Source of the DNA: Thiobacillus sp. SCUT-2
GTDB lineage: Bacteria; Pseudomonadota; Gammaproteobacteria; Burkholderiales; Thiobacillaceae
Assembly: GCF_035621355.1 (NCBI RefSeq)
Contig: NZ_CP141769.1
Coordinates: 1,426,001-1,490,000, forward strand
Direction of reading: 5' to 3'
Length of the DNA stretch: 64,000 nucleotides
Numbering within the stretch: position 1 is the first letter of the stretch; each line of letters starts with the position of its first letter. This document shows positions 28,236 to 51,137 of the stretch, piece by piece. The position numbers were made by a program, and so were the translations under genes. Below the pieces are notes generated by a model, which was not told where the DNA came from, did no database searches, and saw nothing but the letters and a program-made list of their open reading frames with translations.

Positions 28236-29971
28236 AATTCACCATCCAGTGGAAGCTGCGACAGGGCTTTTACCTCGAATCGCTGGCACGGGCTTCGCGC
28301 AGGTTCCTCCGCGTAGTCGACCATCTTTCCGCCGACGCGCGTTCGCCAGACAAGGTGCCCGGAATCGCCCGACAAGATCAGACGATAGGCGTTTTCGGGT
28401 TGCGTCATCGCGTTGAAGCGCGCTGCGACTTGATGCGCCAGTTCCGGGCTGTCGATGATGAGGCCGATTTCGGTATTCAGGTGCATGGAGCGCTGGTCGA
28501 AATTCATCGACCCGATGAAGACCGATTTCTGATCGAACACGAGCAATTTGGCGTGGAGGGAGAAATTGCCGGCATCGGCGATCACGCGCTTCTCGCCGCT
28601 GCCGCGCGTACTTCCGAGCAGGGCGCGCGTCTCATACAGTTCGATGCCCTCCTCCAGCAAGGGAATGCGGTAATGCATGTAGCCGGCTTGCGCAGGGAGC
28701 ACGGTGCTGGATTCGAGCGAGGTCGTCAGGATGCGAACGCGAACACGGCGCGCACGCAGGATCCTGAATAATTTCATGCCATCTTCGCCAGGAACCAGGT
28801 AGGGCGTGATCATCAACAGCTCGTGCTGCGTTTTGGAGGCCTCGTCGAAAACCGACGGGAACATCAACTTGCCGACCATGTTGCCGCGCTCCAGGTCCTT
28901 CTTGTCGGGGCTGTCATAGAGCAGCTTCGCCCGGGCCCACACGAGAGGCAGACGGCCGGACAGGATGCCGTTCAAGGGCTCCCCGCTCGCGATGCGCGTG
29001 ACGTAATCCACGCCTTCATCCTTCAGCGCTTCGCGATGTGCGGCGAGCTTTCTCCGATGCGTCGCCAATTCCTTTCGCTCGTCGACGCGTTCCTGGGACT
29101 TCTCACCCGCCGCTTCGATCCGATCGTCCGCCAGGTCGTCAGGTTCTCCCGCGGCCTGGGCCTCGGGATCGACCTTGAGTGCCTGCTGCGGGATGGAGAG
29201 CGGGTTGTTCCAGAACCGGTCGAAACTGCTGGATAGCTGCTGCACGATGGGGCCGGCGGCAAAGACGTCGTCATCGGCATACTGGCCGTCAGGGTCGATC
29301 TGGAAATACATGTCACCGATGTTTCGCCCGCCGACCAGGGCGATCGCGTTGTCCGCAACGAACAGCTTGTTGTGCATGCGATAGTCCAGGCGGTCGGCAT
29401 TGAACATGAACTCGAGGCCGCGGAAAAACCGCGCGGTCCCTCGGTAGCGGAAGGGGTTGTAATAGCGAATCTGGATGTTCGGGTGCGCCTCGAGCGCCGC
29501 GATCTGTTCGTCTCCATCCAGCGTTTCCCCATCATCGATCAGGAGACGGACGCGGACGCCGCGATCCGCGGCATGAAGGATGGCGTCGGTAAGCAGCTTG
29601 CCGGTCTGATCGGCATGGAAAGCGAAATACTGGAGATCCAGCGTGCGTTGCGCCGCCTGGATGATCTGCATGCGAATCAGGAACCCGTCCTCGCCTGCCG
29701 AGAGAATGTAAAAGCCCGATTGGCCCGGATGGGCATGCGCTGCGGCTGCGAAATGCCGGCCAAAGCGGGTTGCGTCAGGATGGCCGAATGCGGTCGAGGC
29801 CTGGCGCGGATAATCCGCACCCGGCGGCAAGCTGCTGCATGCCCCCAGCAAGGACAAGAGCGCCAGCATCGCCAGCCGCCGGCTGGCAGTCTGGGAAGGC
29901 AGGCGCAATGCGCGTGCCCGATACTCCGTCTCGATGCGGGTGCCCAATACGGCGCGCCTCGTGGTTTGCAT
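28232..29971 (-). CDS. Phospholipase D-family lipoprotein (cardiolipin synthase ClsC-like)
   Basis: 579 residues from ATG 29971. A lipobox LLGAC places Cys45 as the lipidation site. Two HKD motifs mark the PLD active site: HNKLFVADNAIALVGGRN and HAKLLVFDQKSVFIGSMN. It would exchange or hydrolyse phospholipid head groups, as in cardiolipin synthesis by ClsC. A longer reading from 30076 lacks a leader and is not used. CsbD lies 68 nt upstream, DUF5329 overlaps downstream. The left edge of the tandem duplication (29274) falls inside this gene, so a partial copy exists at 40206-40903. Confidence 0.85.
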   Translation of the reverse strand: MQTTRRAVLGTRIETEYRARALRLPSQTASRRLAMLALLSLLGACSSLPPGADYPRQASTAFGHPDATRFGRHFAAAAHAHPGQSGFYILSAGEDGFLIRMQIIQAAQRTLDLQYFAFHADQTGKLLTDAILHAADRGVRVRLLIDDGETLDGDEQIAALEAHPNIQIRYYNPFRYRGTARFFRGLEFMFNADRLDYRMHNKLFVADNAIALVGGRNIGDMYFQIDPDGQYADDDVFAAGPIVQQLSSSFDRFWNNPLSIPQQALKVDPEAQAAGEPDDLADDRIEAAGEKSQERVDERKELATHRRKLAAHREALKDEGVDYVTRIASGEPLNGILSGRLPLVWARAKLLYDSPDKKDLERGNMVGKLMFPSVFDEASKTQHELLMITPYLVPGEDGMKLFRILRARRVRVRILTTSLESSTVLPAQAGYMHYRIPLLEEGIELYETRALLGSTRGSGEKRVIADAGNFSLHAKLLVFDQKSVFIGSMNFDQRSMHLNTEIGLIIDSPELAHQVAARFNAMTQPENAYRLILSGDSGHLVWRTRVGGKMVDYAEEPARSPCQRFEVKALSQLPLDGEL

Positions 29972-30039
29972 CGTTGTCCTGGGCGGGCAAGCAGGAAAGT
30001 GCCCGGCGCATCGCCGGGCACTGCCGTCGCGTGGTGACC

Positions 30040-30255
30040 TTACTTGAACCAATCGTCGCTCGCCTTGCGTTCCCACGATGCGAGCTGGCGCTCGGCTTCA
30101 TCCTTGGCGATGCCGTAGCGCTCCTCGAGCTTGCCGAGCAGCTGATCGCGGCGGCCATTGACGACATCGATGTCATTGTCGGTAAGCTCGCCCCACTGCG
30201 CCTTGACACGCCCCTTGAGCTGCTTCCAGCTGCCTTCGATACGTTCCCAGTTCAT
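30040..30255 (-). CDS. CsbD-family stress protein
   Basis: 71 residues beginning MNWERIEGSWKQLKGRVKAQ, then LTDNDIDVVNGRRDQLLGKLEERYGIAKDEAERQL, the standard CsbD pattern. Small soluble helical protein produced in general stress. GGAGAC lies about 7 nt upstream. Co-directional with the phospholipase gene 68 nt downstream. Its molecular role is unknown in all family members. Confidence 0.9.
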   Translation of the reverse strand: MNWERIEGSWKQLKGRVKAQWGELTDNDIDVVNGRRDQLLGKLEERYGIAKDEAERQLASWERKASDDWFK

Positions 30256-30778
30256 TTCCGTCTCCTAGAAAGATCATGGTTGACCGAGATGACAAGGCAT
30301 CGCGGCCTTGTCCCCTTCTCGCCCGGCGCCATCGAGGCGCGAGGCCCGTCCGCCGATGCGATTACGGCGCAGGCGAAACGGCTCACGCCGCGAAGGCGCT
30401 CGCCTCGCCAGGCGGATGCCCGATGGCGATGGTTTGACTCTAGGTGAACGAGCGGGCAGTCCGTATCAGCCGATTCCCTCGGCCGGTGTAGGAATGCGCT
30501 GAGCCGCCGGCCGGCGGTCGCGGCGAGCCTGCACCATGCGCCTGCCGGCGGAAGCATGTAGGAATCGTCTGACACGCTATTGGGACTGGGCTTATATCGC
30601 GCGTCCGCTGGCCGACATACGCTTCATTGCAGGCTGTCGCTTGATGCGGCCGATCGTTGACGGATCGGCGGACACTGGCGGCCCACGGCTACGGGAAACG
30701 GACTCGCAGTCGCAACCGGTGGCCCGAGGCCTGGCAGGACAAGGCCTGGGTCAGCATAAACGGATAGGAGTGCTTATC
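30256..30778. other. Intergenic region between CsbD and DUF1328
   Basis: 523 bp. No credible gene. Contains divergent promoters and a short dyad CCGATC-N7-GATCGG near 30650-30668. The start site of the DUF1328 gene has ATAGGAG about 8 nt upstream. Confidence 0.5.
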
Positions 30779-30937
30779 ATGCTGCACTACACACTGGTAT
30801 TTTTCATTATCGCCATCATCGCCGCCGCACTGGGGTTTGGCGGCATCGCCGCGGGTGCCGCGGGGATTGCCAAGATCCTGTTCTTTGTCTTCCTGATCAT
30901 GGCCTTGGTAAGCTTCGTCATGAGCCTGGGGCGATGA
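30779..30937 (+). CDS. DUF1328 small membrane protein (YtjA-like)
   Basis: 52 residues: [39 protein letters not shown], ending VSFVMSLGR. Two membrane helices separated by a Gly/Ala-rich turn, the typical DUF1328 form. Longer readings that start upstream lack a Shine-Dalgarno and are not used. Usually stress-induced; exact role unknown. Confidence 0.9.
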
Positions 30938-31031
30938 GCGACGACATGGGGAAGCGGATCGTTCGGGCAAGCGACGCTGTGCGGCCCGCGATCAGCCAGG
31001 ATATCAACACCGATTTTTGCGAGAGGCAAAA

Positions 31032-31670
31032 TTGCTGCACGTAGGGATAGTCGACGACCACCAGATCGTGCGTGCCGGCTTCCGGGAGCTGCTTGGCGAC
31101 ACGGCCGACATGCAGATCTGCCTTGAGGCAGCCGATGGCGACGAGGCACTGGAAAAGCTGCGCGCCACGGCTTGCGATGTATTGCTGCTGGATATTTCCC
31201 TGCCCGGCAAGAGCGGCGTGGATGTATTGCGCGCGGTGAGGCAGCGCTACCCCGACATGAGGGTCTTGATCCTCAGCGGGTTTCCCGAGGAAAGCTACGC
31301 GCTGGCCATGATACGCAATGGGGCAAACGGCTACCTGCACAAGGACTGCGACCAGGCCGAACTGCTGAAGGCGATACGCTCCGTGGCCAACGGACGCAAG
31401 TACGTCTCCGCCAATACGGCCGAATTGCTCGCGGACGAACTCAGCGGGAACCGGCCGGAAGCGCCGCATGCCGCATTGTCCGAGCGGGAACTCCAGGTGT
31501 TCCTGCGCCTGGCCAAGGGGCGGTCGGTTTCGGACATCGCCGAGCAATTGCACCTGAGCGTGAAAACCATCAGTACCTACCGATCGCGATTGATAGAAAA
31601 GCTGGAGGTGTCCAGCAATGCGGAACTTGCCGCTTATGCCATTCGGCACGGCCTGATCACGGATGAATGA
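31032..31670 (+). CDS. NarL/FixJ-family response regulator
   Basis: About 212 residues. The receiver begins LHVGIVDDHQIVRAGF and carries the phospho-Asp in DVLLLDISLPGKSG. The C-terminal LuxR helix-turn-helix is LSERELQVFLRLAKGRSVSDIAEQLHLSVKTISTYRSRLIEKL. There is no ATG: TTG 31032 is chosen because GAGAGG lies 5 nt before it, and family members start at this residue; TTG 31017 is the alternative. The partner is probably the CHASE3 kinase encoded convergently at 32163-33548. Confidence 0.9.
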   Translation: MLHVGIVDDHQIVRAGFRELLGDTADMQICLEAADGDEALEKLRATACDVLLLDISLPGKSGVDVLRAVRQRYPDMRVLILSGFPEESYALAMIRNGANGYLHKDCDQAELLKAIRSVANGRKYVSANTAELLADELSGNRPEAPHAALSERELQVFLRLAKGRSVSDIAEQLHLSVKTISTYRSRLIEKLEVSSNAELAAYAIRHGLITDE

Positions 31671-31738
31671 GACATGGCTGGTGCGCTTGGGTCACGCGCA
31701 AACGAGTTGATACGATCCAACCGACAGGGGCCTGGACG

Positions 31739-32161
31739 ATGACATGCAGTGAGCATCCGGACAATCTGAAAGTCCTCCTGATCGAAGACTCACCGCTGCT
31801 GCGGCAGGTGTTGAGCGGCATGATCGAGGATATCGACGGCGTCGAAATCTGCGGTTATGCCGAGGACGAGCAGCATGCCCTGGACATTCTCGAAACGCAG
31901 CCCATCGATCTTGCCATTGTCGACATCGAGCTCAAGCAGGGAAGCGGCATCGGCGTGCTCAAGACCCTGGGCGCCAATCCGGAACGCTACGGCACGCCGC
32001 ATACCGTCATCCTGTCGAACCATTCGCACCCCGCCATGCGCAAGCGTTGCGAGAGCCTGGGCATCGACGCCTTCTTCGACAAGTCGCTTCAGATGAATCA
32101 GTTGATCGGCTACGTCCAGGACGCCGTTGCGAGGCGCAGCAACCCCTCCCCTGCCCCCTGA
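31739..32161 (+). CDS. Single-domain response regulator (receiver only)
   Basis: 140 residues. Receiver fold with LLIEDSPLLRQVL, phospho-Asp in LAIVDIELKQGSG, the Ser/Thr in VILSNHS and the Lys of FFDKSLQ. No output domain. It probably relays or buffers phosphate from the neighbouring kinase. It is convergent with the kinase gene and ends 1 nt before that gene's stop. ATG 31739 is preferred over the upstream ATG at 31667, which overlaps the NarL-type gene. Confidence 0.85.
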   Translation: MTCSEHPDNLKVLLIEDSPLLRQVLSGMIEDIDGVEICGYAEDEQHALDILETQPIDLAIVDIELKQGSGIGVLKTLGANPERYGTPHTVILSNHSHPAMRKRCESLGIDAFFDKSLQMNQLIGYVQDAVARRSNPSPAP

Positions 32162-32162
32162 T

Positions 32163-33548
32163 TCAGCCCGGCATCGGCGCCTCGACTTCGATGCAGGTCC
32201 CGACGCCGGGGCTCGACGTGATTGTCAGCTTGCCTGCCAGCATGTGCGCACGATGCTGCATGCCCGCCAGACCATGCCGGGCGAGTTGAGGCGAGGACGG
32301 GTCGAATCCCACGCCATCGTCCTTCACGCGCAGCCGGATCGTCCTGCCGGCCACGCCCAGCGAGAGGTCGACGCGCTTGGCGCGGGCGTATTTCCGGATA
32401 TTCGTGAGGGATTCCTGCACGATGCGGAACAAGGCCAGCGATACGTGCTCCGGCAAATCGAGGTCGCCCTCGTGCAGGTCGGTATGAACCTCGATTTCGT
32501 CGCACCGGGCCACCTCGTCCGCCATGACCTGCAAGGCGGCGACCAGGCCCAGCTCATACAGCAGCGCAGGGCGCAAGTCGTTGGTGATGCGGCGCTTCAG
32601 GGCGATGCCGCTCCCCAGCGTGTCCTGGAGTCGAGTCAATCGTTCCGCCAGCCGTTGCTTCAGGTCTTCGGGCAGCTTGCGCTCGAGCCAGTTCGCTTCA
32701 AGCTTGGCGGCCGTCAACAGAGCGCCCAACTCATCGTGCAACTCCCGGGCAAGACGAAATCGTTCCGCTTCCTGCGCATTGGTCAGATAGGTCGCGAGCT
32801 CCTTCAATTGCCGCGTGCGGGTATCGACCTGCGCTTCCAGGCTCTCTCTTTCTTCGTGCAGCATCCGGGTGATCTGGTCGCGCAGCCTTTGCTCCCGCAA
32901 TGATGCAAAGAACAAGGTTACGAGCAGGGCCAGCGACATGGCGGACAGGCCGACCGTCACGGTGCCGCTCTGCCGGTACAGCGCCATGGAGCGGTCGATC
33001 GATTTCTGGCCGCTCTGGCTTGACCGAATTCTCAGTATCTCAACCTGCTTGCGGAAGGCATCCATGGTCTCCTTGCCCTCCTGGATCAGCTGCGGATTGG
33101 CCGCGCCCTTCAGATCGACAAAGGCCCCGACTTCCTGCAGCAAGGTAATTTCCCGCCGAGCCAGCTTGACGAGCTGGTCGGCGGCCTGGTTATCGCCCCG
33201 CTGGCTTTCGCTGCCCTGCTTCACTTGTTCCATCAGCAACGGCAGCTTCGCCATGGCGGACCGATACGGGACGAGATAACTCTTGTCGCCGGTGAGCTGA
33301 TAACCGCGTATGCCCGTCTCGGCATCCACTATCAGCCTCAGCAATTCGTCGATGCGCTGAATCCGCTGATCGTATTGCGCCAGGTGATTGAGCGCATGCA
33401 GTCCCAGCGAGAACTGCAGGTAGCTGATGACCAGCATGCCGATGATGGCCGCGCTGCCAATCGCCAGAAAGACGTGCGGCCAATGCCGCGGGCGCAAGAG
33501 GCTGAACCGGGAAAACGTGCGCGTTAAGTAATCTTTCCCTGAAGCCAT
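32163..33548 (-). CDS. CHASE3-type sensor histidine kinase (NarX/DegS-like HisKA_3)
   Basis: 461 residues. Membrane helices at about 25-45 and 196-214 flank a CHASE3 sensor (AETGIRGYQLTGDKSYLVPYR). A coiled coil follows (EERESLEAQVDTRTRQLKEL), then the HisKA_3 box RLARELHDELGALLTA with H271 as phospho-acceptor, and an ATPase domain (VQESLTNIRKYARAK; DDGVGFDP). Such kinases pair with NarL-type regulators, one of which lies convergently downstream. The signal is unknown; genes around it suggest oxidative or chlorine stress. Confidence 0.9.
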   Translation of the reverse strand: MASGKDYLTRTFSRFSLLRPRHWPHVFLAIGSAAIIGMLVISYLQFSLGLHALNHLAQYDQRIQRIDELLRLIVDAETGIRGYQLTGDKSYLVPYRSAMAKLPLLMEQVKQGSESQRGDNQAADQLVKLARREITLLQEVGAFVDLKGAANPQLIQEGKETMDAFRKQVEILRIRSSQSGQKSIDRSMALYRQSGTVTVGLSAMSLALLVTLFFASLREQRLRDQITRMLHEERESLEAQVDTRTRQLKELATYLTNAQEAERFRLARELHDELGALLTAAKLEANWLERKLPEDLKQRLAERLTRLQDTLGSGIALKRRITNDLRPALLYELGLVAALQVMADEVARCDEIEVHTDLHEGDLDLPEHVSLALFRIVQESLTNIRKYARAKRVDLSLGVAGRTIRLRVKDDGVGFDPSSPQLARHGLAGMQHRAHMLAGKLTITSSPGVGTCIEVEAPMPG

Positions 33549-33885
33549 CGGAAACTCCGCAAAAGACCCCCTGAAAGCACACGAAGGAATCGTCCGACAA
33601 ATCTATCCGCCTGGCCTGACAGACCGGATCGGGGCGGGGCTCTACCATGAGTACGACTCGACGCAACGCAAGCTTCGGCGTCCGGCAAGTCATGCACCAA
33701 ACGGCTGGCTGCGGGAATACGGCGCGACGCGTGTCGATTATAGCCAAGCCGTTTTGGCGCGGGCGCGCATGTCCGGGCATTGCGCGGCGCCGTCGCAAGC
33801 CGATTCCGGCGACCGCCGACAGGCGTCTCGCTCATTGGCGGATCGCCGGACGGAATGTATGCGCTCGATCACACAGGAGATACAT
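33549..33885. other. Intergenic region between the kinase and the ferritin-like gene
   Basis: 337 bp holding two divergent promoters. I see no gene and no strong hairpin in it. Confidence 0.45.
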
Positions 33886-34461
33886 ATGACTGCTACCGCC
33901 ACAGGACGAAAATCCAGCCGCCGCAAGGACGCCGTCGACCCATCCGACTTCCTGACCGACGTGAAGACACTGCGCGAACGTGCACGCAGGCACATCGCAG
34001 AGGGGGCCGTGACGACCGACTACCGGCTGGATCCGGTCGTCGCGGTCAGGCTCCTGAACGACGCACTTGCGACCGAGCTGATTTGCACGCTACGCTACCG
34101 TCAGCACGCGTTCGTCGCCAAGGGCATCAATTCGGAGCCCATCGCCCAGGAATTCCTGGCGCACTCCAACGAGGAGCTGGCGCATGCGGATCAGATTGCC
34201 AGGCGCATCGTCCAGCTCGGCGGCTCGCCCGACATGCAGCCCGGGGACCTGACCGACAAGAGCCACGCCGAATATGTGACCTGCGACACGCTGAAGGAGA
34301 TGATCCGCGAGAACCTGGTGGCCGAGCGGATCGCCATCGAAAGCTATCGCGAACTGGTGAGCTTCTTCGGTGACCGCGACCCAACGACCCGCGTCATGCT
34401 GGAGGGCATCCTGGCGATGGAAGAGCAGCACGCGGACGAATTGTCGGATCTTCTGGATTGA
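33886..34461 (+). CDS. Ferritin-like/bacterioferritin-type di-iron protein
   Basis: 191 residues from ATG 33886 with AGGAGA 5 nt upstream. The four-helix di-iron ligands are E64 (LATELICTL), E97-x2-H100 (NEELAHADQI), E147 (VAERIAIESY) and E179-x2-H182 (MEEQHADEL). This matches the DPS/bacterioferritin-like family that stores or oxidises Fe(II), which limits Fenton damage. The N-terminal 20 residues are basic and could touch DNA. Confidence 0.85.
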   Translation: MTATATGRKSSRRKDAVDPSDFLTDVKTLRERARRHIAEGAVTTDYRLDPVVAVRLLNDALATELICTLRYRQHAFVAKGINSEPIAQEFLAHSNEELAHADQIARRIVQLGGSPDMQPGDLTDKSHAEYVTCDTLKEMIRENLVAERIAIESYRELVSFFGDRDPTTRVMLEGILAMEEQHADELSDLLD

Positions 34462-34657
34462 TGCGTGCGCGGATCCTTCCGCTGATCTCTTGCGCATGAA
34501 GGAGTCGATGCCCTTGCCGGGTCCGCACGACGTGCTCCTCGTTTCGGGTGACGCCGACGACCCTCTCCGTGCTCGACCATTCCAAGGGTTGCGGCCACGC
34601 CGATCTCGTCACCTGCCAGATGCCGCGCCGGCGCAGCCGGGGCCCTCCCCTTCCACG

Positions 34658-35302
34658 CTACCAGCGCAACGCGCGGCGCCCGACCAGGGCACCGGCGGCA
34701 GCGGGGATCAGCATGCCGAGCAGGTACCACGTGCCGATGAACGGCGCCGCCATCTCCGGACAATGCAGGCAGTAGACCAGCCCACCGACCGCGCCCGACA
34801 GAAGCCCTGCGGCGGCGCCTGCGAGCGGGAGGCGCGTCGGCGCGAGCTCGCGCATGGCCCACAGCGTCGCCGCGAACACCGGTGCCGACAGCATGGCGAT
34901 GAGGAACGGACAGACGGCCCACGTCTCCCCGAGCACCAGATCCATCCGGGCTGCGGGTTCCGCGCGGGCCAGCACGACGGCCGCCAGCGCCCACATCGCA
35001 AGCACCGGCACGGCAAGCGCGACCCCCAGCCGGGCACCGATCCGCGCGCCCGGCTGCGACAGCCTCGCGACGGCGCGCAGGCTCGCCGCGGCAAGCGAAG
35101 CGACATAGGCGATCTTGGCCCAGAACATCGGCAGCCGGACCGCCTCGCCGAGGTCCGGGCGCACGCCGAGCAGGCCGAGCATCAGCGCGCCCGCCGCGAC
35201 CGCACCCACGACAATGGCGGCGGCGTATCGGCGCGCCGCGACATGGCGCGGCACGGGCCCCTCCCCCCGCGCCAGCAGCAGAACGAGGTCGTCGGTCTTC
35301 AT
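34658..35302 (-). CDS. nrsF: Anti-sigma factor NrsF (DUF1109)
   Basis: 214 residues, six membrane helices. It begins [20 protein letters not shown], has the cytoplasmic N-terminus typical of NrsF, and carries a late YCLHCPE motif whose two cysteines could sense oxidants. NrsF holds SigF at the membrane until reactive chlorine or other oxidants release it. Overlaps the sigF stop by 4 nt. Confidence 0.9.
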
Positions 35303-35844
35303 GCTTTTCTCCGAACCAAGGCGGCCAGCGCCTTCATGCCGCGGTGCACCCCGACCTTGACGGCCGACTCGGACATCCCCGTGAGCCGGGCCGCTTCGGC
35401 GACGGACAAGCCTTCCAGCTTCGTATGCACGATCGGCAGCCGCTGCCGGTCCGGCAACTGGTCGAGCAGCTTGCCGAGGTCCCGGCGCGCCTCGGCAGAC
35501 TCGTTTTCGGGCGCGGCAAAGAAATCCGCCTCGTCATCGATCGGGTCCGTCAGCGCCTCGTGGCCCGCGCGCCGGCGCAGCAGATCGGCCAGCTTGTACT
35601 TCGCGATGGCATGCACCCAGGCGGTCAGCGGCCGGCTGGCGTCGTAGGTGTGGCGCACGTTGTGAATGGCGAGCAAGGTTTCCTGCACGAGATCTTCCAC
35701 TTCTTCCGGCAAGCGGGTGAGGCGCCTTCGGAAATAGGCGCGCAGATGTCCGCTCAATTCCGCGAGGAAGGCGCGGTAGGCGTCGGCATCGCCTCCGAGG
35801 CCGCGCACCAGCAGGCCCTTGAGCCGGCCCTCGGTAGCGTTCAT
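35299..35844 (-). CDS. sigF: ECF sigma factor SigF
   Basis: 181 residues. Sigma region 2 ([35 protein letters not shown]) and region 4 ([44 protein letters not shown]) are complete. An ATG at 35862 is in frame, but it lies inside the -10 element (CGAA, 35862-35865 on the minus strand), so the message cannot contain it. ATG 35844, preceded by AAAGGG, is the usable start. In Azospira this factor drives the yedZ1-yedY1-mrpX genes in answer to hypochlorite. Confidence 0.9.
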
Positions 35845-35861
35845 CTGCCCTTTGTCTGTCA

Positions 35862-35887
35862 TTCGTCGTGTGGGGAAGCTTGGTTAC
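35862..35887 (-). promoter_or_regulatory. SigF-type promoter of sigF-nrsF
   Basis: On the minus strand GTAACC (35887-35882) and CGAA (35865-35862) are separated by exactly 16 nt, the known SigF consensus. This predicts autoregulation. Confidence 0.75.
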
Positions 35888-35942
35888 AGGCGCGCCGGAT
35901 CCGGCTGCCAGCCCGGGAACGCGAGGAATTGTGCCACGGCTT

Positions 35943-35968
35943 GTAACCGTCGGCCGGCTCGGCACGAA
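35943..35968 (+). promoter_or_regulatory. SigF-type promoter of yedZ1-yedY1-mrpX
   Basis: GTAACC (35943-35948), 16-nt spacer, CGAA (35965-35968), pointing toward the cytochrome b gene. It has the same spacing as the divergent sigF promoter 55 bp away. Confidence 0.75.
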
Positions 35969-36043
35969 CTAGCCCTCATGACGCCGCAACCGAACTGCCA
36001 CCCGCCGATGCGGAGCCGCCTGCCGAACCGAGGAGCGATGGAA

Positions 36044-36712
36044 ATGACATCCTGCAGATCCGCCCCGACCGCCACCCTGGCGGCGGACCCGCTGCCGAAT
36101 CGACCGGGGACACCGCCGGCGGGCGACGGCCGCGCCATCCACCCGCGCTGGCTGCGCATCGCCCACTGGCTCAACACGCTTGCGGTGATCGTCATGGTGA
36201 CGAGCGGCTGGCGCATCTACAACGCGTCGCCACTGTTCGGATTCAGCTTCGCCGAGGGGCTCACGCTCGGCGGCTGGCTTGCCGGCGCGCTGCAGTGGCA
36301 CTTCGCCGCGATGTGGCTGCTGGGCGCGAACGGCCTCGCCTACCTGCTGCTCACCGCCGGCAGCGGTCGCTTGTGGCAACGCTTCCTTCCGGTGTCGCCG
36401 CGCGCCGTCCTGGACGACCTGCGCGACGCTTTGCACGGGCGCCTGTCGCATGCGGACCCCCGCCGCTACAACAGCCTGCAGCGCCTCGCTTACCTGTTCG
36501 TGATGCTCGACAGCGCGGTGCTGGTCGCGTCGGGCCTGGTGCTGTGGAAGTCCGTCCAGTTCCCGTTGCTGCGCGAACTGCTCGGCGGATACGAGACCGC
36601 GCGCTACGTGCATTTCTTCGCCATGACCGCACTGGCCGGCTTCGTCGTGGTTCACCTGGTCATGGTGGCGCTGGTGCCGCGCACCCTCCGCGCCATGACG
36701 CTTGGCCGCTGA
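36044..36712 (+). CDS. yedZ1: Cytochrome b membrane subunit YedZ1-like
   Basis: 222 residues from ATG 36044, with AGGAG 8 nt upstream; an ATG two codons earlier is too close to it. About four to five membrane helices with His residues placed for b-type heme: RIAHWLN, QWHFAAMW, YVHFFAM, VVHLVMV. It belongs to the formate dehydrogenase-gamma/cytochrome b561 type and should pass quinol electrons to the periplasmic YedY1 enzyme encoded 10 nt downstream. Confidence 0.85.
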   Translation: MTSCRSAPTATLAADPLPNRPGTPPAGDGRAIHPRWLRIAHWLNTLAVIVMVTSGWRIYNASPLFGFSFAEGLTLGGWLAGALQWHFAAMWLLGANGLAYLLLTAGSGRLWQRFLPVSPRAVLDDLRDALHGRLSHADPRRYNSLQRLAYLFVMLDSAVLVASGLVLWKSVQFPLLRELLGGYETARYVHFFAMTALAGFVVVHLVMVALVPRTLRAMTLGR

Positions 36713-42602: not shown

Positions 42603-42670
42603 GACATGGCTGGTGCGCTTGGGTCACGCGCAAACGAGTTGATACGATCCAACCGACAGGGGCCTGGACG

Positions 42671-43093
42671 ATGACATGCAGTGAGCATCCGGACAATCTG
42701 AAAGTCCTCCTGATCGAAGACTCACCGCTGCTGCGGCAGGTGTTGAGCGGCATGATCGAGGATATCGACGGCGTCGAAATCTGCGGTTATGCCGAGGACG
42801 AGCAGCATGCCCTGGACATTCTCGAAACGCAGCCCATCGATCTTGCCATTGTCGACATCGAGCTCAAGCAGGGAAGCGGCATCGGCGTGCTCAAGACCCT
42901 GGGCGCCAATCCGGAACGCTACGGCACGCCGCATACCGTCATCCTGTCGAACCATTCGCACCCCGCCATGCGCAAGCGTTGCGAGAGCCTGGGCATCGAC
43001 GCCTTCTTCGACAAGTCGCTTCAGATGAATCAGTTGATCGGCTACGTCCAGGACGCCGTTGCGAGGCGCAGCAACCCCTCCCCTGCCCCCTGA
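42671..43093 (+). CDS. Single-domain response regulator, copy 2
   Basis: 140 residues, identical to 31739-32161. Receiver only, with the phospho-Asp in LAIVDIELKQG. Confidence 0.85.
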   Translation: MTCSEHPDNLKVLLIEDSPLLRQVLSGMIEDIDGVEICGYAEDEQHALDILETQPIDLAIVDIELKQGSGIGVLKTLGANPERYGTPHTVILSNHSHPAMRKRCESLGIDAFFDKSLQMNQLIGYVQDAVARRSNPSPAP

Positions 43094-43094
43094 T

Positions 43095-44480
43095 TCAGCC
43101 CGGCATCGGCGCCTCGACTTCGATGCAGGTCCCGACGCCGGGGCTCGACGTGATTGTCAGCTTGCCTGCCAGCATGTGCGCACGATGCTGCATGCCCGCC
43201 AGACCATGCCGGGCGAGTTGAGGCGAGGACGGGTCGAATCCCACGCCATCGTCCTTCACGCGCAGCCGGATCGTCCTGCCGGCCACGCCCAGCGAGAGGT
43301 CGACGCGCTTGGCGCGGGCGTATTTCCGGATATTCGTGAGGGATTCCTGCACGATGCGGAACAAGGCCAGCGATACGTGCTCCGGCAAATCGAGGTCGCC
43401 CTCGTGCAGGTCGGTATGAACCTCGATTTCGTCGCACCGGGCCACCTCGTCCGCCATGACCTGCAAGGCGGCGACCAGGCCCAGCTCATACAGCAGCGCA
43501 GGGCGCAAGTCGTTGGTGATGCGGCGCTTCAGGGCGATGCCGCTCCCCAGCGTGTCCTGGAGTCGAGTCAATCGTTCCGCCAGCCGTTGCTTCAGGTCTT
43601 CGGGCAGCTTGCGCTCGAGCCAGTTCGCTTCAAGCTTGGCGGCCGTCAACAGAGCGCCCAACTCATCGTGCAACTCCCGGGCAAGACGAAATCGTTCCGC
43701 TTCCTGCGCATTGGTCAGATAGGTCGCGAGCTCCTTCAATTGCCGCGTGCGGGTATCGACCTGCGCTTCCAGGCTCTCTCTTTCTTCGTGCAGCATCCGG
43801 GTGATCTGGTCGCGCAGCCTTTGCTCCCGCAATGATGCAAAGAACAAGGTTACGAGCAGGGCCAGCGACATGGCGGACAGGCCGACCGTCACGGTGCCGC
43901 TCTGCCGGTACAGCGCCATGGAGCGGTCGATCGATTTCTGGCCGCTCTGGCTTGACCGAATTCTCAGTATCTCAACCTGCTTGCGGAAGGCATCCATGGT
44001 CTCCTTGCCCTCCTGGATCAGCTGCGGATTGGCCGCGCCCTTCAGATCGACAAAGGCCCCGACTTCCTGCAGCAAGGTAATTTCCCGCCGAGCCAGCTTG
44101 ACGAGCTGGTCGGCGGCCTGGTTATCGCCCCGCTGGCTTTCGCTGCCCTGCTTCACTTGTTCCATCAGCAACGGCAGCTTCGCCATGGCGGACCGATACG
44201 GGACGAGATAACTCTTGTCGCCGGTGAGCTGATAACCGCGTATGCCCGTCTCGGCATCCACTATCAGCCTCAGCAATTCGTCGATGCGCTGAATCCGCTG
44301 ATCGTATTGCGCCAGGTGATTGAGCGCATGCAGTCCCAGCGAGAACTGCAGGTAGCTGATGACCAGCATGCCGATGATGGCCGCGCTGCCAATCGCCAGA
44401 AAGACGTGCGGCCAATGCCGCGGGCGCAAGAGGCTGAACCGGGAAAACGTGCGCGTTAAGTAATCTTTCCCTGAAGCCAT
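43095..44480 (-). CDS. CHASE3-type sensor histidine kinase, copy 2
   Basis: 461 residues, identical to 32163-33548, with H271 in the HisKA_3 box and intact ATP-binding motifs. Confidence 0.9.
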   Translation of the reverse strand: MASGKDYLTRTFSRFSLLRPRHWPHVFLAIGSAAIIGMLVISYLQFSLGLHALNHLAQYDQRIQRIDELLRLIVDAETGIRGYQLTGDKSYLVPYRSAMAKLPLLMEQVKQGSESQRGDNQAADQLVKLARREITLLQEVGAFVDLKGAANPQLIQEGKETMDAFRKQVEILRIRSSQSGQKSIDRSMALYRQSGTVTVGLSAMSLALLVTLFFASLREQRLRDQITRMLHEERESLEAQVDTRTRQLKELATYLTNAQEAERFRLARELHDELGALLTAAKLEANWLERKLPEDLKQRLAERLTRLQDTLGSGIALKRRITNDLRPALLYELGLVAALQVMADEVARCDEIEVHTDLHEGDLDLPEHVSLALFRIVQESLTNIRKYARAKRVDLSLGVAGRTIRLRVKDDGVGFDPSSPQLARHGLAGMQHRAHMLAGKLTITSSPGVGTCIEVEAPMPG

Positions 44481-44817
44481 CGGAAACTCCGCAAAAGACC
44501 CCCTGAAAGCACACGAAGGAATCGTCCGACAAATCTATCCGCCTGGCCTGACAGACCGGATCGGGGCGGGGCTCTACCATGAGTACGACTCGACGCAACG
44601 CAAGCTTCGGCGTCCGGCAAGTCATGCACCAAACGGCTGGCTGCGGGAATACGGCGCGACGCGTGTCGATTATAGCCAAGCCGTTTTGGCGCGGGCGCGC
44701 ATGTCCGGGCATTGCGCGGCGCCGTCGCAAGCCGATTCCGGCGACCGCCGACAGGCGTCTCGCTCATTGGCGGATCGCCGGACGGAATGTATGCGCTCGA
44801 TCACACAGGAGATACAT
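44481..44817. other. Intergenic region, copy 2 of 33549-33885
   Basis: Divergent promoter region only; nothing else seen. Confidence 0.45.
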
Positions 44818-45393
44818 ATGACTGCTACCGCCACAGGACGAAAATCCAGCCGCCGCAAGGACGCCGTCGACCCATCCGACTTCCTGACCGACGTGAAGAC
44901 ACTGCGCGAACGTGCACGCAGGCACATCGCAGAGGGGGCCGTGACGACCGACTACCGGCTGGATCCGGTCGTCGCGGTCAGGCTCCTGAACGACGCACTT
45001 GCGACCGAGCTGATTTGCACGCTACGCTACCGTCAGCACGCGTTCGTCGCCAAGGGCATCAATTCGGAGCCCATCGCCCAGGAATTCCTGGCGCACTCCA
45101 ACGAGGAGCTGGCGCATGCGGATCAGATTGCCAGGCGCATCGTCCAGCTCGGCGGCTCGCCCGACATGCAGCCCGGGGACCTGACCGACAAGAGCCACGC
45201 CGAATATGTGACCTGCGACACGCTGAAGGAGATGATCCGCGAGAACCTGGTGGCCGAGCGGATCGCCATCGAAAGCTATCGCGAACTGGTGAGCTTCTTC
45301 GGTGACCGCGACCCAACGACCCGCGTCATGCTGGAGGGCATCCTGGCGATGGAAGAGCAGCACGCGGACGAATTGTCGGATCTTCTGGATTGA
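44818..45393 (+). CDS. Ferritin-like di-iron protein, copy 2
   Basis: 191 residues, identical to 33886-34461, with all di-iron ligands kept. Confidence 0.85.
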   Translation: MTATATGRKSSRRKDAVDPSDFLTDVKTLRERARRHIAEGAVTTDYRLDPVVAVRLLNDALATELICTLRYRQHAFVAKGINSEPIAQEFLAHSNEELAHADQIARRIVQLGGSPDMQPGDLTDKSHAEYVTCDTLKEMIRENLVAERIAIESYRELVSFFGDRDPTTRVMLEGILAMEEQHADELSDLLD

Positions 45394-45589
45394 TGCGTGC
45401 GCGGATCCTTCCGCTGATCTCTTGCGCATGAAGGAGTCGATGCCCTTGCCGGGTCCGCACGACGTGCTCCTCGTTTCGGGTGACGCCGACGACCCTCTCC
45501 GTGCTCGACCATTCCAAGGGTTGCGGCCACGCCGATCTCGTCACCTGCCAGATGCCGCGCCGGCGCAGCCGGGGCCCTCCCCTTCCACG

Positions 45590-46234
45590 CTACCAGCGCA
45601 ACGCGCGGCGCCCGACCAGGGCACCGGCGGCAGCGGGGATCAGCATGCCGAGCAGGTACCACGTGCCGATGAACGGCGCCGCCATCTCCGGACAATGCAG
45701 GCAGTAGACCAGCCCACCGACCGCGCCCGACAGAAGCCCTGCGGCGGCGCCTGCGAGCGGGAGGCGCGTCGGCGCGAGCTCGCGCATGGCCCACAGCGTC
45801 GCCGCGAACACCGGTGCCGACAGCATGGCGATGAGGAACGGACAGACGGCCCACGTCTCCCCGAGCACCAGATCCATCCGGGCTGCGGGTTCCGCGCGGG
45901 CCAGCACGACGGCCGCCAGCGCCCACATCGCAAGCACCGGCACGGCAAGCGCGACCCCCAGCCGGGCACCGATCCGCGCGCCCGGCTGCGACAGCCTCGC
46001 GACGGCGCGCAGGCTCGCCGCGGCAAGCGAAGCGACATAGGCGATCTTGGCCCAGAACATCGGCAGCCGGACCGCCTCGCCGAGGTCCGGGCGCACGCCG
46101 AGCAGGCCGAGCATCAGCGCGCCCGCCGCGACCGCACCCACGACAATGGCGGCGGCGTATCGGCGCGCCGCGACATGGCGCGGCACGGGCCCCTCCCCCC
46201 GCGCCAGCAGCAGAACGAGGTCGTCGGTCTTCAT
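45590..46234 (-). CDS. nrsF: Anti-sigma factor NrsF (DUF1109), copy 2
   Basis: 214 residues, identical to 34658-35302. Because sigF is doubled too, the sigma/anti-sigma ratio should be unchanged by the duplication. Confidence 0.9.
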
Positions 46235-46776
46235 GCTTTTCTCCGAACCAAGGCGGCCAGCGCCTTCATGCCGCGGTGCACCCCGACCTTGACGGCCGAC
46301 TCGGACATCCCCGTGAGCCGGGCCGCTTCGGCGACGGACAAGCCTTCCAGCTTCGTATGCACGATCGGCAGCCGCTGCCGGTCCGGCAACTGGTCGAGCA
46401 GCTTGCCGAGGTCCCGGCGCGCCTCGGCAGACTCGTTTTCGGGCGCGGCAAAGAAATCCGCCTCGTCATCGATCGGGTCCGTCAGCGCCTCGTGGCCCGC
46501 GCGCCGGCGCAGCAGATCGGCCAGCTTGTACTTCGCGATGGCATGCACCCAGGCGGTCAGCGGCCGGCTGGCGTCGTAGGTGTGGCGCACGTTGTGAATG
46601 GCGAGCAAGGTTTCCTGCACGAGATCTTCCACTTCTTCCGGCAAGCGGGTGAGGCGCCTTCGGAAATAGGCGCGCAGATGTCCGCTCAATTCCGCGAGGA
46701 AGGCGCGGTAGGCGTCGGCATCGCCTCCGAGGCCGCGCACCAGCAGGCCCTTGAGCCGGCCCTCGGTAGCGTTCAT
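46231..46776 (-). CDS. sigF: ECF sigma factor SigF, copy 2
   Basis: 181 residues, identical to 35299-35844. The start is set by the same promoter argument: the in-frame ATG at 46794 is inside the -10 element. Confidence 0.9.
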
Positions 46777-46793
46777 CTGCCCTTTGTCTGTCA

Positions 46794-46819
46794 TTCGTCG
46801 TGTGGGGAAGCTTGGTTAC
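46794..46819 (-). promoter_or_regulatory. SigF-type promoter of sigF-nrsF, copy 2
   Basis: GTAACC-N16-CGAA on the minus strand (46819-46814 and 46797-46794). Confidence 0.75.
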
Positions 46820-46874
46820 AGGCGCGCCGGATCCGGCTGCCAGCCCGGGAACGCGAGGAATTGTGCCACGGCTT

Positions 46875-46900
46875 GTAACCGTCGGCCGGCTCGGCACGAA
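46875..46900 (+). promoter_or_regulatory. SigF-type promoter of yedZ1 operon, copy 2
   Basis: GTAACC (46875-46880), 16-nt spacer, CGAA (46897-46900). Confidence 0.75.
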
Positions 46901-46975
46901 CTAGCCCTCATGACGCCGCAACCGAACTGCCACCCGCCGATGCGGAGCCGCCTGCCGAACCGAGGAGCGATGGAA

Positions 46976-47644
46976 ATGACATCCTGCAGATCCGCCCCGA
47001 CCGCCACCCTGGCGGCGGACCCGCTGCCGAATCGACCGGGGACACCGCCGGCGGGCGACGGCCGCGCCATCCACCCGCGCTGGCTGCGCATCGCCCACTG
47101 GCTCAACACGCTTGCGGTGATCGTCATGGTGACGAGCGGCTGGCGCATCTACAACGCGTCGCCACTGTTCGGATTCAGCTTCGCCGAGGGGCTCACGCTC
47201 GGCGGCTGGCTTGCCGGCGCGCTGCAGTGGCACTTCGCCGCGATGTGGCTGCTGGGCGCGAACGGCCTCGCCTACCTGCTGCTCACCGCCGGCAGCGGTC
47301 GCTTGTGGCAACGCTTCCTTCCGGTGTCGCCGCGCGCCGTCCTGGACGACCTGCGCGACGCTTTGCACGGGCGCCTGTCGCATGCGGACCCCCGCCGCTA
47401 CAACAGCCTGCAGCGCCTCGCTTACCTGTTCGTGATGCTCGACAGCGCGGTGCTGGTCGCGTCGGGCCTGGTGCTGTGGAAGTCCGTCCAGTTCCCGTTG
47501 CTGCGCGAACTGCTCGGCGGATACGAGACCGCGCGCTACGTGCATTTCTTCGCCATGACCGCACTGGCCGGCTTCGTCGTGGTTCACCTGGTCATGGTGG
47601 CGCTGGTGCCGCGCACCCTCCGCGCCATGACGCTTGGCCGCTGA
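46976..47644 (+). CDS. yedZ1: Cytochrome b membrane subunit YedZ1-like, copy 2
   Basis: 222 residues, identical to 36044-36712. Heme-type His residues in RIAHWLN, QWHFAAMW, YVHFFAM and VVHLVMV are all kept. Confidence 0.85.
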   Translation: MTSCRSAPTATLAADPLPNRPGTPPAGDGRAIHPRWLRIAHWLNTLAVIVMVTSGWRIYNASPLFGFSFAEGLTLGGWLAGALQWHFAAMWLLGANGLAYLLLTAGSGRLWQRFLPVSPRAVLDDLRDALHGRLSHADPRRYNSLQRLAYLFVMLDSAVLVASGLVLWKSVQFPLLRELLGGYETARYVHFFAMTALAGFVVVHLVMVALVPRTLRAMTLGR

Positions 47645-47654
47645 GGAGACGCGC

Positions 47655-48422
47655 ATGAGCAAGCGAATCATTCCGGTCGATGGCGATGCGCTGACGAAGG
47701 AGGCGCTCAGCCGGCTCGATCAGCCGGCCCGCCGTCTGTTTCTGCGGCGTGCCCTGACGCTCGGCGGACTCTCCCTGCTGAGTGGCTGCGCGATCACCGA
47801 CGAGCCGAGCGCCGAGAAGGCGCTGGCGAAGATCTCGCGCTTCAACGACAGGGTCCAGGCGTGGCTGTTCGACCCCAACCGCCTCGCCCCCACCTATCCG
47901 GAATCCATGATCGCCCGGCCGTTTCCGTTCAACGCCTACTACGACGAGGCGCAGGTGCCGGACGTGGACGCCGGGCGCTTCCGGCTGGAAGTCAGCGGCC
48001 TGGTGGCCGACAGGCATGCCTGGAGCCTTCCGGAACTCCATGCGCTACCGCAGGCCGACCAGATCACGCGGCACATCTGCGTCGAAGGCTGGAGCGCGAT
48101 CGGCCGATGGGGAGGCGTGCCCTTCTCGCTCTTCCTGCGCCGGGTGGGCGCGGACCTGACCGCGAAGTACGTCGGCTTCAAGTGCGCCGACGACTACTAC
48201 ACGAGCATCGACATGCCGACCGCGCTCCACCCGCAGACGCTGCTCGCACTGACCTTCGACGGGCAGACGCTGCCGCGTCGCTACGGCTTTCCGATGAAGC
48301 TGCGCATGCCGACCAAGCTGGGCTACAAGAATCCCAAGCACATCCAGGCGATCTTCGTCACCAATACCTACCCCGGGGGCTACTGGGAAGACCAGGGGTA
48401 CAACTGGTTCGGCGGCAGCTGA
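47655..48422 (+). CDS. yedY1: Periplasmic methionine-sulfoxide reductase YedY1-like, copy 2
   Basis: 255 residues, identical to 36723-37490, with Mo ligand C142 and the twin-arginine-like leader intact. Confidence 0.9.
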   Translation: MSKRIIPVDGDALTKEALSRLDQPARRLFLRRALTLGGLSLLSGCAITDEPSAEKALAKISRFNDRVQAWLFDPNRLAPTYPESMIARPFPFNAYYDEAQVPDVDAGRFRLEVSGLVADRHAWSLPELHALPQADQITRHICVEGWSAIGRWGGVPFSLFLRRVGADLTAKYVGFKCADDYYTSIDMPTALHPQTLLALTFDGQTLPRRYGFPMKLRMPTKLGYKNPKHIQAIFVTNTYPGGYWEDQGYNWFGGS

Positions 48423-48498
48423 GTTCGCCTCGGTTGCCCTGAAACATGGCATCTCTGCCAGATCTTCGTAAATCCACCTCAACCAAAAGGAGTTCACC

Positions 48499-48750
48499 AT
48501 GAGCAAGATGATCGCCACCCTGATGTGCCTGGGCCTGTTCGCCGCCGGCGGCAGTGCCATCGCCGCCGACAGCATGGGCAGGGACGGCATGTCCCAGGGC
48601 ACCATGGCCAAGGACGGCATGCAGAAGGACGGGATGGGCAAACCCGGCATGCAGAAGAAGGACATGAAGAAGAACGGCATGGCCAAGGAAACGATGGGCC
48701 ACGACGCGATGTCCAAGGATTCGATGGGCAAGGACGGCATGAAGCCCTAG
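48499..48750 (+). CDS. mrpX: Methionine-rich peptide MrpX, copy 2
   Basis: 83 residues, identical to 37567-37818. For a scavenger consumed in proportion to oxidant, a second gene copy would directly raise capacity. Confidence 0.92.
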   Translation: MSKMIATLMCLGLFAAGGSAIAADSMGRDGMSQGTMAKDGMQKDGMGKPGMQKKDMKKNGMAKETMGHDAMSKDSMGKDGMKP

Positions 48751-48799
48751 ATCGCCGCTGGCCGGCCGCGTGCCTCCGCACGCAGCCGGCCGTCGTGAT

Positions 48800-48823
48800 C
48801 CGGACCGCACGCATGCGGTCCGG
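48800..48823 (+). promoter_or_regulatory. Hairpin between mrpX and msrA, copy 2
   Basis: Same 10-bp perfect stem as 37868-37891. Confidence 0.5.
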
Positions 48824-48843
48824 CCGAATCAAGGAGACCGCTG

Positions 48844-49521
48844 ATGAATCGATTGCTCACCGCGGTGGCCGTGCCGGCCCTCGTGCTCGCACTGGGCTGT
48901 TCGCGCGCCTCGACCGCCACCCCCCTGCCCGACCCCGCCGTCGACATTCCGCTGGCCGCGGCCTCCGGCAGCCGGACCGCCGTCCTTGCCGGCGGATGCT
49001 TCTGGGGCATGGAAGGCGTGTTCGAGCATGTCCGCGGCGTCACCCGCGTCGAATCCGGCTACGCCGGCGGCAGCGCGAACACCGCTACGTACGGCCAGGT
49101 CAGCAGCGGCCGCACCGGCCACGCCGAGTCGGTGCGCATCGCCTACGACCCGGCGCGCATCACGTATGGCCAGCTGCTGAAGGTGTTCTTCTCGGTCGCG
49201 CACGACCCGACCGAGCGGAACCGCCAGGGACCCGACACCGGCACGCAGTACCGCTCCGCCATTTTCTACACCGACGCCGCCCAGAAGCGGGTCGCCGACG
49301 ATTACATCGCCCAGCTGCAGAAGGGCGATGCCTTCCCGCGCCCGATCGCGACGCAGGTCGCGCGCCTGCCCGCCTTCTATCCAGCCGAGGCCCACCACCA
49401 GCATTACCTGGTCGAGCACCCGGAGCAGCCCTACATCGTCATCAACGACCTGCCGAAAATCGCCGCGCTGAAGCGGCTGCTTCCCTCGCTGTACGTCGAT
49501 CGCCCCGCCGGCATCCCCTGA
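48844..49521 (+). CDS. msrA: Exported methionine sulfoxide reductase MsrA, copy 2
   Basis: 225 residues, identical to 37912-38589, with catalytic C52 and lipobox C19. Confidence 0.92.
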   Translation: MNRLLTAVAVPALVLALGCSRASTATPLPDPAVDIPLAAASGSRTAVLAGGCFWGMEGVFEHVRGVTRVESGYAGGSANTATYGQVSSGRTGHAESVRIAYDPARITYGQLLKVFFSVAHDPTERNRQGPDTGTQYRSAIFYTDAAQKRVADDYIAQLQKGDAFPRPIATQVARLPAFYPAEAHHQHYLVEHPEQPYIVINDLPKIAALKRLLPSLYVDRPAGIP

Positions 49522-49786
49522 TCACCTTGGACGAGGCTGCCCCTCGCGGGCGGACAAGGGGAACGACGAAGCGCCGCGTGCGGCGCAACGCTGGGCTCGC
49601 GCAGCGGCACGCCTCGAAATATTCTGAGGAATGCATCACAAGCTGCTGAATCAACGCAGTTCCTGCAACCGCCGGCATTGGCCCTAGAATGGAAGGCTTC
49701 CCGGGAACCGACCCTTCATTTTCACTTGCCATCGATGCGCGGCTGCTTCGCCCCCTCCCGTTCACGTCCGCCCGACGTGGCCCGCC

Positions 49787-50965
49787 ATGCTTGACGGATT
49801 GCGCGCCCTCCCGCGCACCGTGTGGCTGCTCGGACTGGTGAGCCTTTTCAACGACACCACCAGCGAGCTGGTCTACCCGCTGGTGCCCCTGTTTCTCGCC
49901 TCCGTGCTGATGGCCGGCCCAAGGGCACTCGGCATCATCGAGGGCATCGCCGAGGCGACGGCGAGCCTGCTCAAGCTCTTTTCGGGAATCCTCGTCGACC
50001 GGCACGGCCGCGCCAAGGGCTGGGTGCTCGCCGGCTACGGGCTTGCGGCACTGTCGCGTCCGCTGTTCTACGTCGCCGGCAGCTGGCCCGTCGTGCTCGC
50101 GCTGCGCTTCGCCGACCGCGTCGGCAAGGGCCTGCGCACCTCCCCGCGCGACGCCCTGCTCGCCGGCGCCGCCGGCGAATCGCGGCGCGGCCTCGCGTTC
50201 GGCGTGCACCGCGCGATGGACAACGCCGGCGCGGTGATCGGCCCGCTCATCGCCGCCTGGCTGCTGGCCGAAGGCATGGCGCTGCGCGAGGTGTTCCTGT
50301 GGGCGATCGTGCCGGGCATCGCGACGCTCGCGCTCGCCCTCGCGATCCGCGAGCCGGCCGCGCCGACGCCGCGACCGTGCGCGGCCTTCTCGTGGACGCT
50401 GGCCGGCTTCCCGCCGGCGTTCCGCCGCTATCTCGTCGTTCTCGCGCTGTTCACGCTCGGCAACTCGTCGAACATGTTCCTGCTGCTGCGCGCGAAGGAG
50501 CTCGGCCTTCCCGAATACCAGGTGCCCCTGCTGTGGGCGCTGACCTCGGCCGTCGCGATGATCTTCTCGACGCCGCTCTCGGCGCTGTCCGACCGCCTCG
50601 GGCGCACGCGCCTGATCCTGGGCGGCTGGATCGTCTACGGGCTGTTCTACCTCGGACTCGGCCTCGACCGCTTCCACCCGCTGCTGCTGTGGCCGCTGTT
50701 CGCCTGCTACGGCCTCTTCCTCGCCGCCACCGAAGGCGCCGAAAAGGCGCTCGTCGCCGACCTTGCGCCGTCGGACCGGCTCGGCACCGCCTACGGCTGG
50801 TTCAACCTCACCGCAGGCGTGATGCTGCTGCCCGCCTCGCTGCTCTTCGGCCTGATCTACCAGCAGGCCGGTGCGCCCGCTGCGTTCGCCTTTTCCGCGG
50901 GCTGCGCGCTGGCCGCGGCGGCCCTGCTGCCTGGCTGGGCGCTGCGGCGGTGGGGTGAGGCTTGA
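49787..50965 (+). CDS. MFS transporter, copy 2
   Basis: 392 residues, identical to 38855-40033. Here it is followed by the native right-hand flank and the PEP-CTERM gene region. Confidence 0.85.
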   Translation: MLDGLRALPRTVWLLGLVSLFNDTTSELVYPLVPLFLASVLMAGPRALGIIEGIAEATASLLKLFSGILVDRHGRAKGWVLAGYGLAALSRPLFYVAGSWPVVLALRFADRVGKGLRTSPRDALLAGAAGESRRGLAFGVHRAMDNAGAVIGPLIAAWLLAEGMALREVFLWAIVPGIATLALALAIREPAAPTPRPCAAFSWTLAGFPPAFRRYLVVLALFTLGNSSNMFLLLRAKELGLPEYQVPLLWALTSAVAMIFSTPLSALSDRLGRTRLILGGWIVYGLFYLGLGLDRFHPLLLWPLFACYGLFLAATEGAEKALVADLAPSDRLGTAYGWFNLTAGVMLLPASLLFGLIYQQAGAPAAFAFSAGCALAAAALLPGWALRRWGEA

Positions 50966-51137
50966 GACCAAGCGTGCTGAGTGCAGCCTTACGTTGCTTC
51001 CCGACGTCGGGGAAACGGCCACAAGCCAACCTCCCCACCGCCCAGATAGCAGTCGCTTGAATGTCTGGAACCCCTTCTCGGGCAGCCTCTCTTGTTTTTG
51101 TTTCTGGCCCGGCACCGCAGCCAGTCGAACCGGTTCT

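Follow-up and report, generated by a model that had tools for sequence, protein, structure and literature searches.

A near-perfect 10.9 kb tandem repeat of a predicted oxidant-defence locus in the Thiobacillus sp. SCUT-2 assembly is probably an untrimmed circular-contig overlap

Does the chromosome of Thiobacillus sp. SCUT-2 carry a predicted reactive-chlorine defence locus twice, or does only its assembly do so? The question is raised by a 64,000-nucleotide stretch of DNA (positions 1,426,001 to 1,490,000 of contig NZ_CP141769.1, assembly GCF_035621355.1; hereafter the window, in whose coordinates features are given unless stated otherwise), in which a 10,932-nt unit with genes of the SigF-NrsF, YedZ1-YedY1, MrpX and MsrA types stands twice in tandem. 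An original prediction, made from the letters of this stretch, had described a perfect duplication that, if real, would be a fresh amplification of the kind that chlorine or oxidants could select for, and had named a long-read or graph assembly artefact as the main alternative. We find that the artefact fits better than the selected amplification. The repeat is probably the start/end overlap of a circular long-read contig that was left untrimmed, closed end to end and rotated to dnaA, a specific form of artefact absent from the alternative as first worded, and the second copy is most likely absent from the organism.

Two direct tandem copies are indeed present at an offset of 10,932 bp. Copy 1 occupies 29274-40205 and copy 2 occupies 40206-51137 (its end falling at 51136 or 51137), with an exact identical run of 10,924 bp and no substitutions, far too long to have arisen by chance. 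The duplication is near-perfect rather than perfect, as one base differs: 8-10 bp short of the joint (40196-40206, breakpoint 40205/40206) copy 1 has an extra A near its end and reads AAA at 40196-40198, where the native right edge has AA. Copy 1 ends in CAGTCGAAACCGGTTC followed by TCGGC across the joint and copy 2 in CAGTCGAACCGGTTCT followed by TGTCGG across the right edge; when the end strings are compared (GTCGAAACCGGTTC in copy 1, GTCGAACCGGTTC in copy 2) the extra A is the difference. The edges share a single base (T), and the longest word shared within 150 bp either side of both edges is 9 bp, in direct or inverted orientation, none of which spans the joint, in agreement with the lack of long homology noted earlier. 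The copies thus lie head to tail, share 1 bp at the joint and show no repeat at the edges that could have mediated the event, as in a short-junction duplication. In the 3,010,981 bp single-contig genome the joint sequence occurs once and the unit edges twice, i.e. one joint for two copies. The left edge falls inside a gene of the PLD family (cardiolipin-synthase-like; 28232-30076, minus strand; PF13091 133 bits, PF00614 43 bits) which is open across that edge. The right edge lies between genes, 173 bp beyond a gene for an MFS transporter. Copy 2 keeps just the first 267 codons of the PLD gene, after which the reading runs into an antisense frame, and we judge the resulting 832-codon chimeric frame across the joint (38510-41008, minus strand) to be non-functional.

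How could an overlap of contig ends come to lie in the middle of a contig? We propose that the assembler, presumably working from long reads, turned a circular chromosome into a single linear contig. This contig would have begun at present position 40206, made one full circuit, continued for about 10.93 kb beyond its starting point and ended at present position 40205. Had this overlap been left untrimmed and the two ends closed end to end, rotation of the sequence to a dnaA start would then have made it surface mid-contig as a near-perfect tandem repeat, with the joint marking where contig end meets contig start, copy 1 corresponding to the overlapping tail of the linear contig as first assembled and copy 2 to its head. 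The true chromosome would be ~3,000,050 bp long with one copy of an ordinary SigF-NrsF/YedZ1-YedY1-MrpX-MsrA locus. Because the contig starts beside dnaA (match at contig positions 437-916, plus strand) and its first and last 20 kb have no 25-mer in common, we infer that the re-setting to dnaA came after closure. The disagreement between the copies is confined to the putative contig end, and a randomly placed single difference would fall within 10 bp of a unit end only ~0.2% of the time (20 of 10,933). A 1 bp joint, with no repeat or long word linking the edges, is as expected for arbitrary contig ends, and the overlap is further favoured by a left edge that cuts the PLD gene, by the single joint between two copies, and by a unit in which a conserved core is combined with genes that were not seen next to it in other loci. 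Overlaps at the ends of circular contigs are reported to reach thousands of bases, in an amount that tracks read N50 for Canu and NextDenovo (PMC6966772). Near-identical contig-end overlaps, low-quality contig ends and resetting to dnaA have likewise been described (PMC4699355), and duplicated circular-contig ends are cited as one form of the spurious additional sequence found in single-tool assemblies (PMC12460055). Ku-type end joining with added bases was considered as a source of the extra A and rejected, since no Ku match (PF02735) was found in the genome.

Several points weigh against an untrimmed overlap. Poor contig ends often carry more than one difference and just one base differs here. 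That the reads were long is itself deduced from the assembly being one contig, checks for overlap are part of many finishing pipelines, and joints of 0-1 bp also arise in real short-junction duplications. The module's tandem repetition in a Bordetella assembly, a separate case described below, would favour biology if real, and none of the sequence features tested is exclusive to an artefact. If the repeat is an artefact, ~10.9 kb of the closed genome is false and eleven genes are doubled in error, and the combination seen here, a dnaA-rotated contig with one near-perfect tandem repeat whose sole error lies beside the joint, would serve as a simple screen for the same fault elsewhere.

What has been doubled, whether by assembly or by the cell? 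The genes, whose functions are assigned here by family membership (Pfam, NCBIfam), bear out the payload originally listed (sigF-nrsF, yedZ1-yedY1, mrpX, msrA, kinase, regulator, ferritin-like and MFS genes), in the case of mrpX by its methionine count, and no named gene of the unit has a broken frame. An extracytoplasmic function (ECF) sigma factor gene, sigF (35299-35862, minus strand, also 46231-46794; NF009188 305.6 bits, cut-off 250), adjoins nrsF for its putative anti-sigma factor (34658-35302, minus strand, also 45590-46234), a call for which Pfam is far above its cut-off (PF06532, 239 bits) and the NCBIfam equivalog NF042994 below its own (165.9 versus 300 bits). A YedY-type molybdopterin oxidoreductase, yedY1 (36723-37490, plus strand, also 47655-48422; PF00174 101.7 bits), is accompanied by its cytochrome b partner, a yedZ1-like b-type cytochrome of the cytochrome b561 type (36038-36712, plus strand, also 46970-47644; PF01292 84.1 bits; start placed by eye), and by an mrpX-like methionine-rich peptide of 83 amino acids, 15 of them Met, with a signal-like N-terminus as judged by eye (37567-37818, plus strand, also 48499-48750). 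Next follows the peptide methionine sulfoxide reductase gene msrA (37912-38589, plus strand, also 48844-49521; PF01625 199.4 bits, TIGR00401 172.5 bits), whose product has an N-terminus that by eye is lipoprotein-like, and then the MFS transporter gene (38855-40033, plus strand, also 49787-50965; PF07690), 173 bp left of both the joint and the right edge. The left part of the unit comprises a DUF1328 small membrane protein (30779-30937, plus strand, also 41711-41869; PF07043 in frame 30536-30937, start by eye), a response-regulator receiver protein (31667-32161, plus strand, also 42599-43093; PF00072), a CHASE3/HisKA_3 histidine kinase (32163-33548, minus strand, also 43095-44480; PF05227, PF07730, PF02518) and a ferritin-like or bacterioferritin-like open reading frame (ORF; 33754-34461, plus strand, also 44686-45393; PF00210 96 bits), the true start of which is probably further in.

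Between sigF and yedZ1 each copy has a perfect, divergent pair of GTAACC-N16-CGAA, the Caulobacter sigma-F motif (PMC3511200), forming predicted promoters for sigF (35862-35887, minus strand, also 46794-46819) and for yedZ1-yedY1 (35943-35968, plus strand, also 46875-46900). A genome-wide search, made for perfect matches alone, returned four, all in the unit and two per copy, against one for a reversed-pattern control; with up to one mismatch allowed, the window has four matches (all perfect) versus an average of 1.61 in shuffled sequence, with four or more in 9 of 100 shuffles. As all four perfect motifs lie in the unit, it holds the whole perfect-match predicted sigma-F regulon, which is hence doubled in the assembly. 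The sigF-nrsF/yedYZ/mrpX/msrA gene set has been proposed to provide periplasmic methionine cycling against hypochlorite in perchlorate reducers (PMC4623255). A genome search for the chlorite dismutase family (PF06778) gave no match, suggesting that the setting known from Azospira, (per)chlorate respiration, is not transferable and not a likely one for this locus; the supposed likeness to the Azospira hypochlorite response therefore holds for the gene families and not for that context. By the mechanism proposed for the module in perchlorate reducers, SigF freed from NrsF would switch on the divergent promoters, the exported Met-rich peptide would take the oxidation that other targets would otherwise suffer, and its reduction would fall to YedY1-YedZ1 and to MsrA.

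Is the unit a natural entity elsewhere? We compared it with 80 named loci, the best 80 of at least 586 with YedY1 relatives, some of which are represented by fetched stretches of just a few kb. YedZ was found in 79, SigF in 39, NrsF in 37 and MsrA in 26, and a Met-rich ORF lies on the same strand no more than 3 kb downstream of yedY in 66. The divergent motif pair is present in 25 of the 80, all with a SigF match; two of the 39 SigF loci lack any motif (L055, L087) and one locus has a motif with no SigF match (L079). None of the PLD, DUF1328, receiver, kinase, ferritin and MFS genes was detected in the fetched stretch of any of the 80 loci (tblastn, E 1e-5), which suggests that the unit is a conserved core plus genes that happen to adjoin it. 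Among 11 further stretches from relatives the whole unit occurs in none: two share the core from sigF to msrA or from sigF to mrpX (L181, L184), two share yedZ-yedY (L185, L186), and one (L182) shares a DUF5329-PLD pair and nearby frames of the left flank. The original prediction had proposed looking for a single copy in related genomes; among 24 congeners just one genome (G018) has a YedY1 of more than 70% identity, on a 4.3 kb contig, so that the comparison offers no same-species control. Relatives of the MFS gene at 86-87% identity are single and in other surroundings in three congeners (G052, G041, G020).

A real tandem duplication, in which sister chromosomes would have recombined illegitimately near the terminus through a short junction and which was then either kept by selection or caught by chance, is possible but in our view rather unlikely. 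The location would suit it. GC skew is positive in 10/10 sampled stretches from the contig start to 1.37 Mb and negative in 9/10 from 1.49 Mb on, and a 28-mer at contig positions 1418591-1418618, 7.4 kb left of the window, equals in 25/28 positions what we take to be the E. coli dif sequence, so that this dif-like site probably marks the chromosome terminus. The repeat lies 36.7-58.5 kb from it, with the site outside the unit, and the zone near dif is recombination-prone. A dif/Xer-mediated event, or a dif inside the unit, was rejected, the best match in the window being 17/28 and the 25/28 site lying 36.7 kb left of the unit. A real duplication also accords with the direct tandem order and the 1-bp joint, with the unbroken frames, which suggest good base quality, and with the presence of every perfect sigma-F-type motif of the genome in the unit; it would double the perfect-match predicted regulon together with the kinase, receiver, ferritin-like and MFS genes. 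Sites with 0-5 bp in common are reported to give rise to most duplications in an Acinetobacter baylyi system (PMC9997567). The joint here sits between convergent genes, MFS and the truncated PLD, so that no gene comes under a new promoter and any benefit would be one of dosage. This arrangement and the make-up of the chimeric frame, PLD codons followed by antisense, led us to reject the joint as a site of promoter capture or of a useful gene fusion. Against a real event stands the extra A beside the joint, which simple strand joining leaves unexplained in a genome where no Ku was found, and identical 10.9 kb direct repeats are unstable under RecA. Nor does the identity of the copies show that the duplication is fresh, as had been suggested: at 1e-9 to 1e-10 mutations per bp and generation, zero substitutions in 10,924 bp bound its age to less than about 1e5-1e6 generations. 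The mediators that one might look for at the edges were rejected in turn. No transposase was found among the ORFs scanned next to the edges, which supports the claimed lack of insertion sequences there for those ORFs (not every ORF of the window was scanned), and a duplication mediated by an insertion sequence or repeat was dismissed, there being no long shared words at the edges. A perfect 10-bp palindrome at the right edge, GAACCGGTTC (51127-51136), which the extra A cuts to 8 bp in copy 1, is not convincing as a hotspot, with 110 such 10-bp palindromes in the 64 kb.

Another assembly lends the real duplication some support. The assembly of Bordetella genomosp. 2 AU8256 (NZ_NEVT01000006.1; positions 5420-15093 of our stretch L068) contains a 4,837-bp tandem yedZ1-yedY1-mrpX-msrA with one mismatch and ~0 bp of homology at the joint. 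This too may be an assembly fault of joined contigs rather than a real duplication, because the record title names a 1,664-base node and the record is 1.38 Mb long. It is the one near-perfect tandem among the 80 named loci besides the present repeat, which tells against a real duplication, although stretches with flanks of at most 10 kb could hardly show a 10.9 kb period; one other locus has a second, diverged YedZ-YedY pair (L080) and another a short repeat (L094). We rejected recurrent amplification of the module, with this one other case in 80. YedY1 was found at E 1e-100 in 39/399 genomes of the order and 5/369 of the class, our own genome being counted in both, and tandem copies were seen in none of the other 38 and 4 positive genomes, respectively, which speaks weakly against a real duplication since most order genomes are drafts and drafts collapse perfect tandems. 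Second, diverged and distant YedY1 copies occur in three genomes (G031, G174, G309). YedY1 also matched 134 plasmid records at E 1e-60, some of the best 40 of which list two or three places (places being counted, not their order).

It is unlikely that the duplication is not only real but also maintained by copy-number selection on a self-contained "regulon in a box", with the Bordetella genomosp. 2 case as an independent duplication. The appeal of this idea is that sigma factor, anti-sigma factor, every perfect sigma-F motif, the Met-rich scavenger and the repair enzymes are predicted to lie in one 10.9 kb unit, so that tandem duplication would, if the idea is true, raise scavenger capacity with sigma/anti-sigma stoichiometry unchanged. 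If real, the repeat would be a natural case in which the dosage of an entire predicted oxidant-defence regulon has risen, and the effects of the dose of its parts would be easy to test. Another kind of assembly fault, whether overlapping contigs placed end to end unmerged or a double pass of the assembler through a chimeric read or a minority structural variant, would give the same joint features, and structural errors and spurious extra sequence are reported to be common in single-tool long-read assemblies (PMC12460055), but we think it very improbable, as circular closure needs fewer assumptions given the dnaA start and no second long tandem repeat was found in a 456 kb sample of the genome (23 stretches, ~15% of it), where short-period repeats alone appeared (L125, L129).

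The surroundings of the repeat are of separate interest. The left half of the window carries Tni-type transposon genes and defence genes. The former, at 1956-6723, comprise a Mu-transpos_C/TniA-like gene, TniB and TniQ, followed by a NikA-like protein. At 22817-25360 there is a CBASS-like (cyclic oligonucleotide-based antiphage signalling system) pair, a patatin phospholipase effector next to an AGS_C/DncV-like cyclase, with strong PADLOC matches. At 8234-10376 two frames converge and overlap at ~8.8-9.1 kb, one for an LmuA-like Cap4 nuclease (matching 4-270 of 384 profile positions) and one for AbiEii (1-204 of 290), with AbiEi beyond. The C-terminal part of the profile is unmatched in both, as though two defence genes had been fused by a deletion. 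A PEP-CTERM protein is encoded just right of the repeat (51605-52741).

Which known system does the repeat most resemble? It shares with circular-contig overlaps (the problem that Circlator addresses, or the contiguity above 100% of Canu and NextDenovo assemblies) a near-identical repeat of kilobase size, arbitrary breakpoints, a defect at a contig end and a dnaA start, and differs in that the overlap lies mid-contig, since rotation would have come after untrimmed closure, a step we infer for this assembly. With the Acinetobacter baylyi cat system (PMC9997567) it has in common a direct tandem, a junction in the 0-5 bp class and no insertion sequence seen, its ~11 kb unit falling just under the reported 12-290 kb; unlike that system it has an extra base 8-10 bp from the joint and is known from an assembly alone. 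As for the locus itself, the hypochlorite response described for Azospira suillum PS (PMC4623255) has the same gene families and a Met-rich peptide, to which the sigma-F-type motifs may be added here, whereas chlorite dismutase is unmatched in the present genome and kinase, ferritin-like and MFS genes adjoin the locus as in none of the 80 others. The sigma-F/NrsF regulon of Caulobacter is alike in the GTAACC-N16-CGAA motif and in the NrsF anti-sigma family, but is described as a response to heavy metals (PMC3511200).

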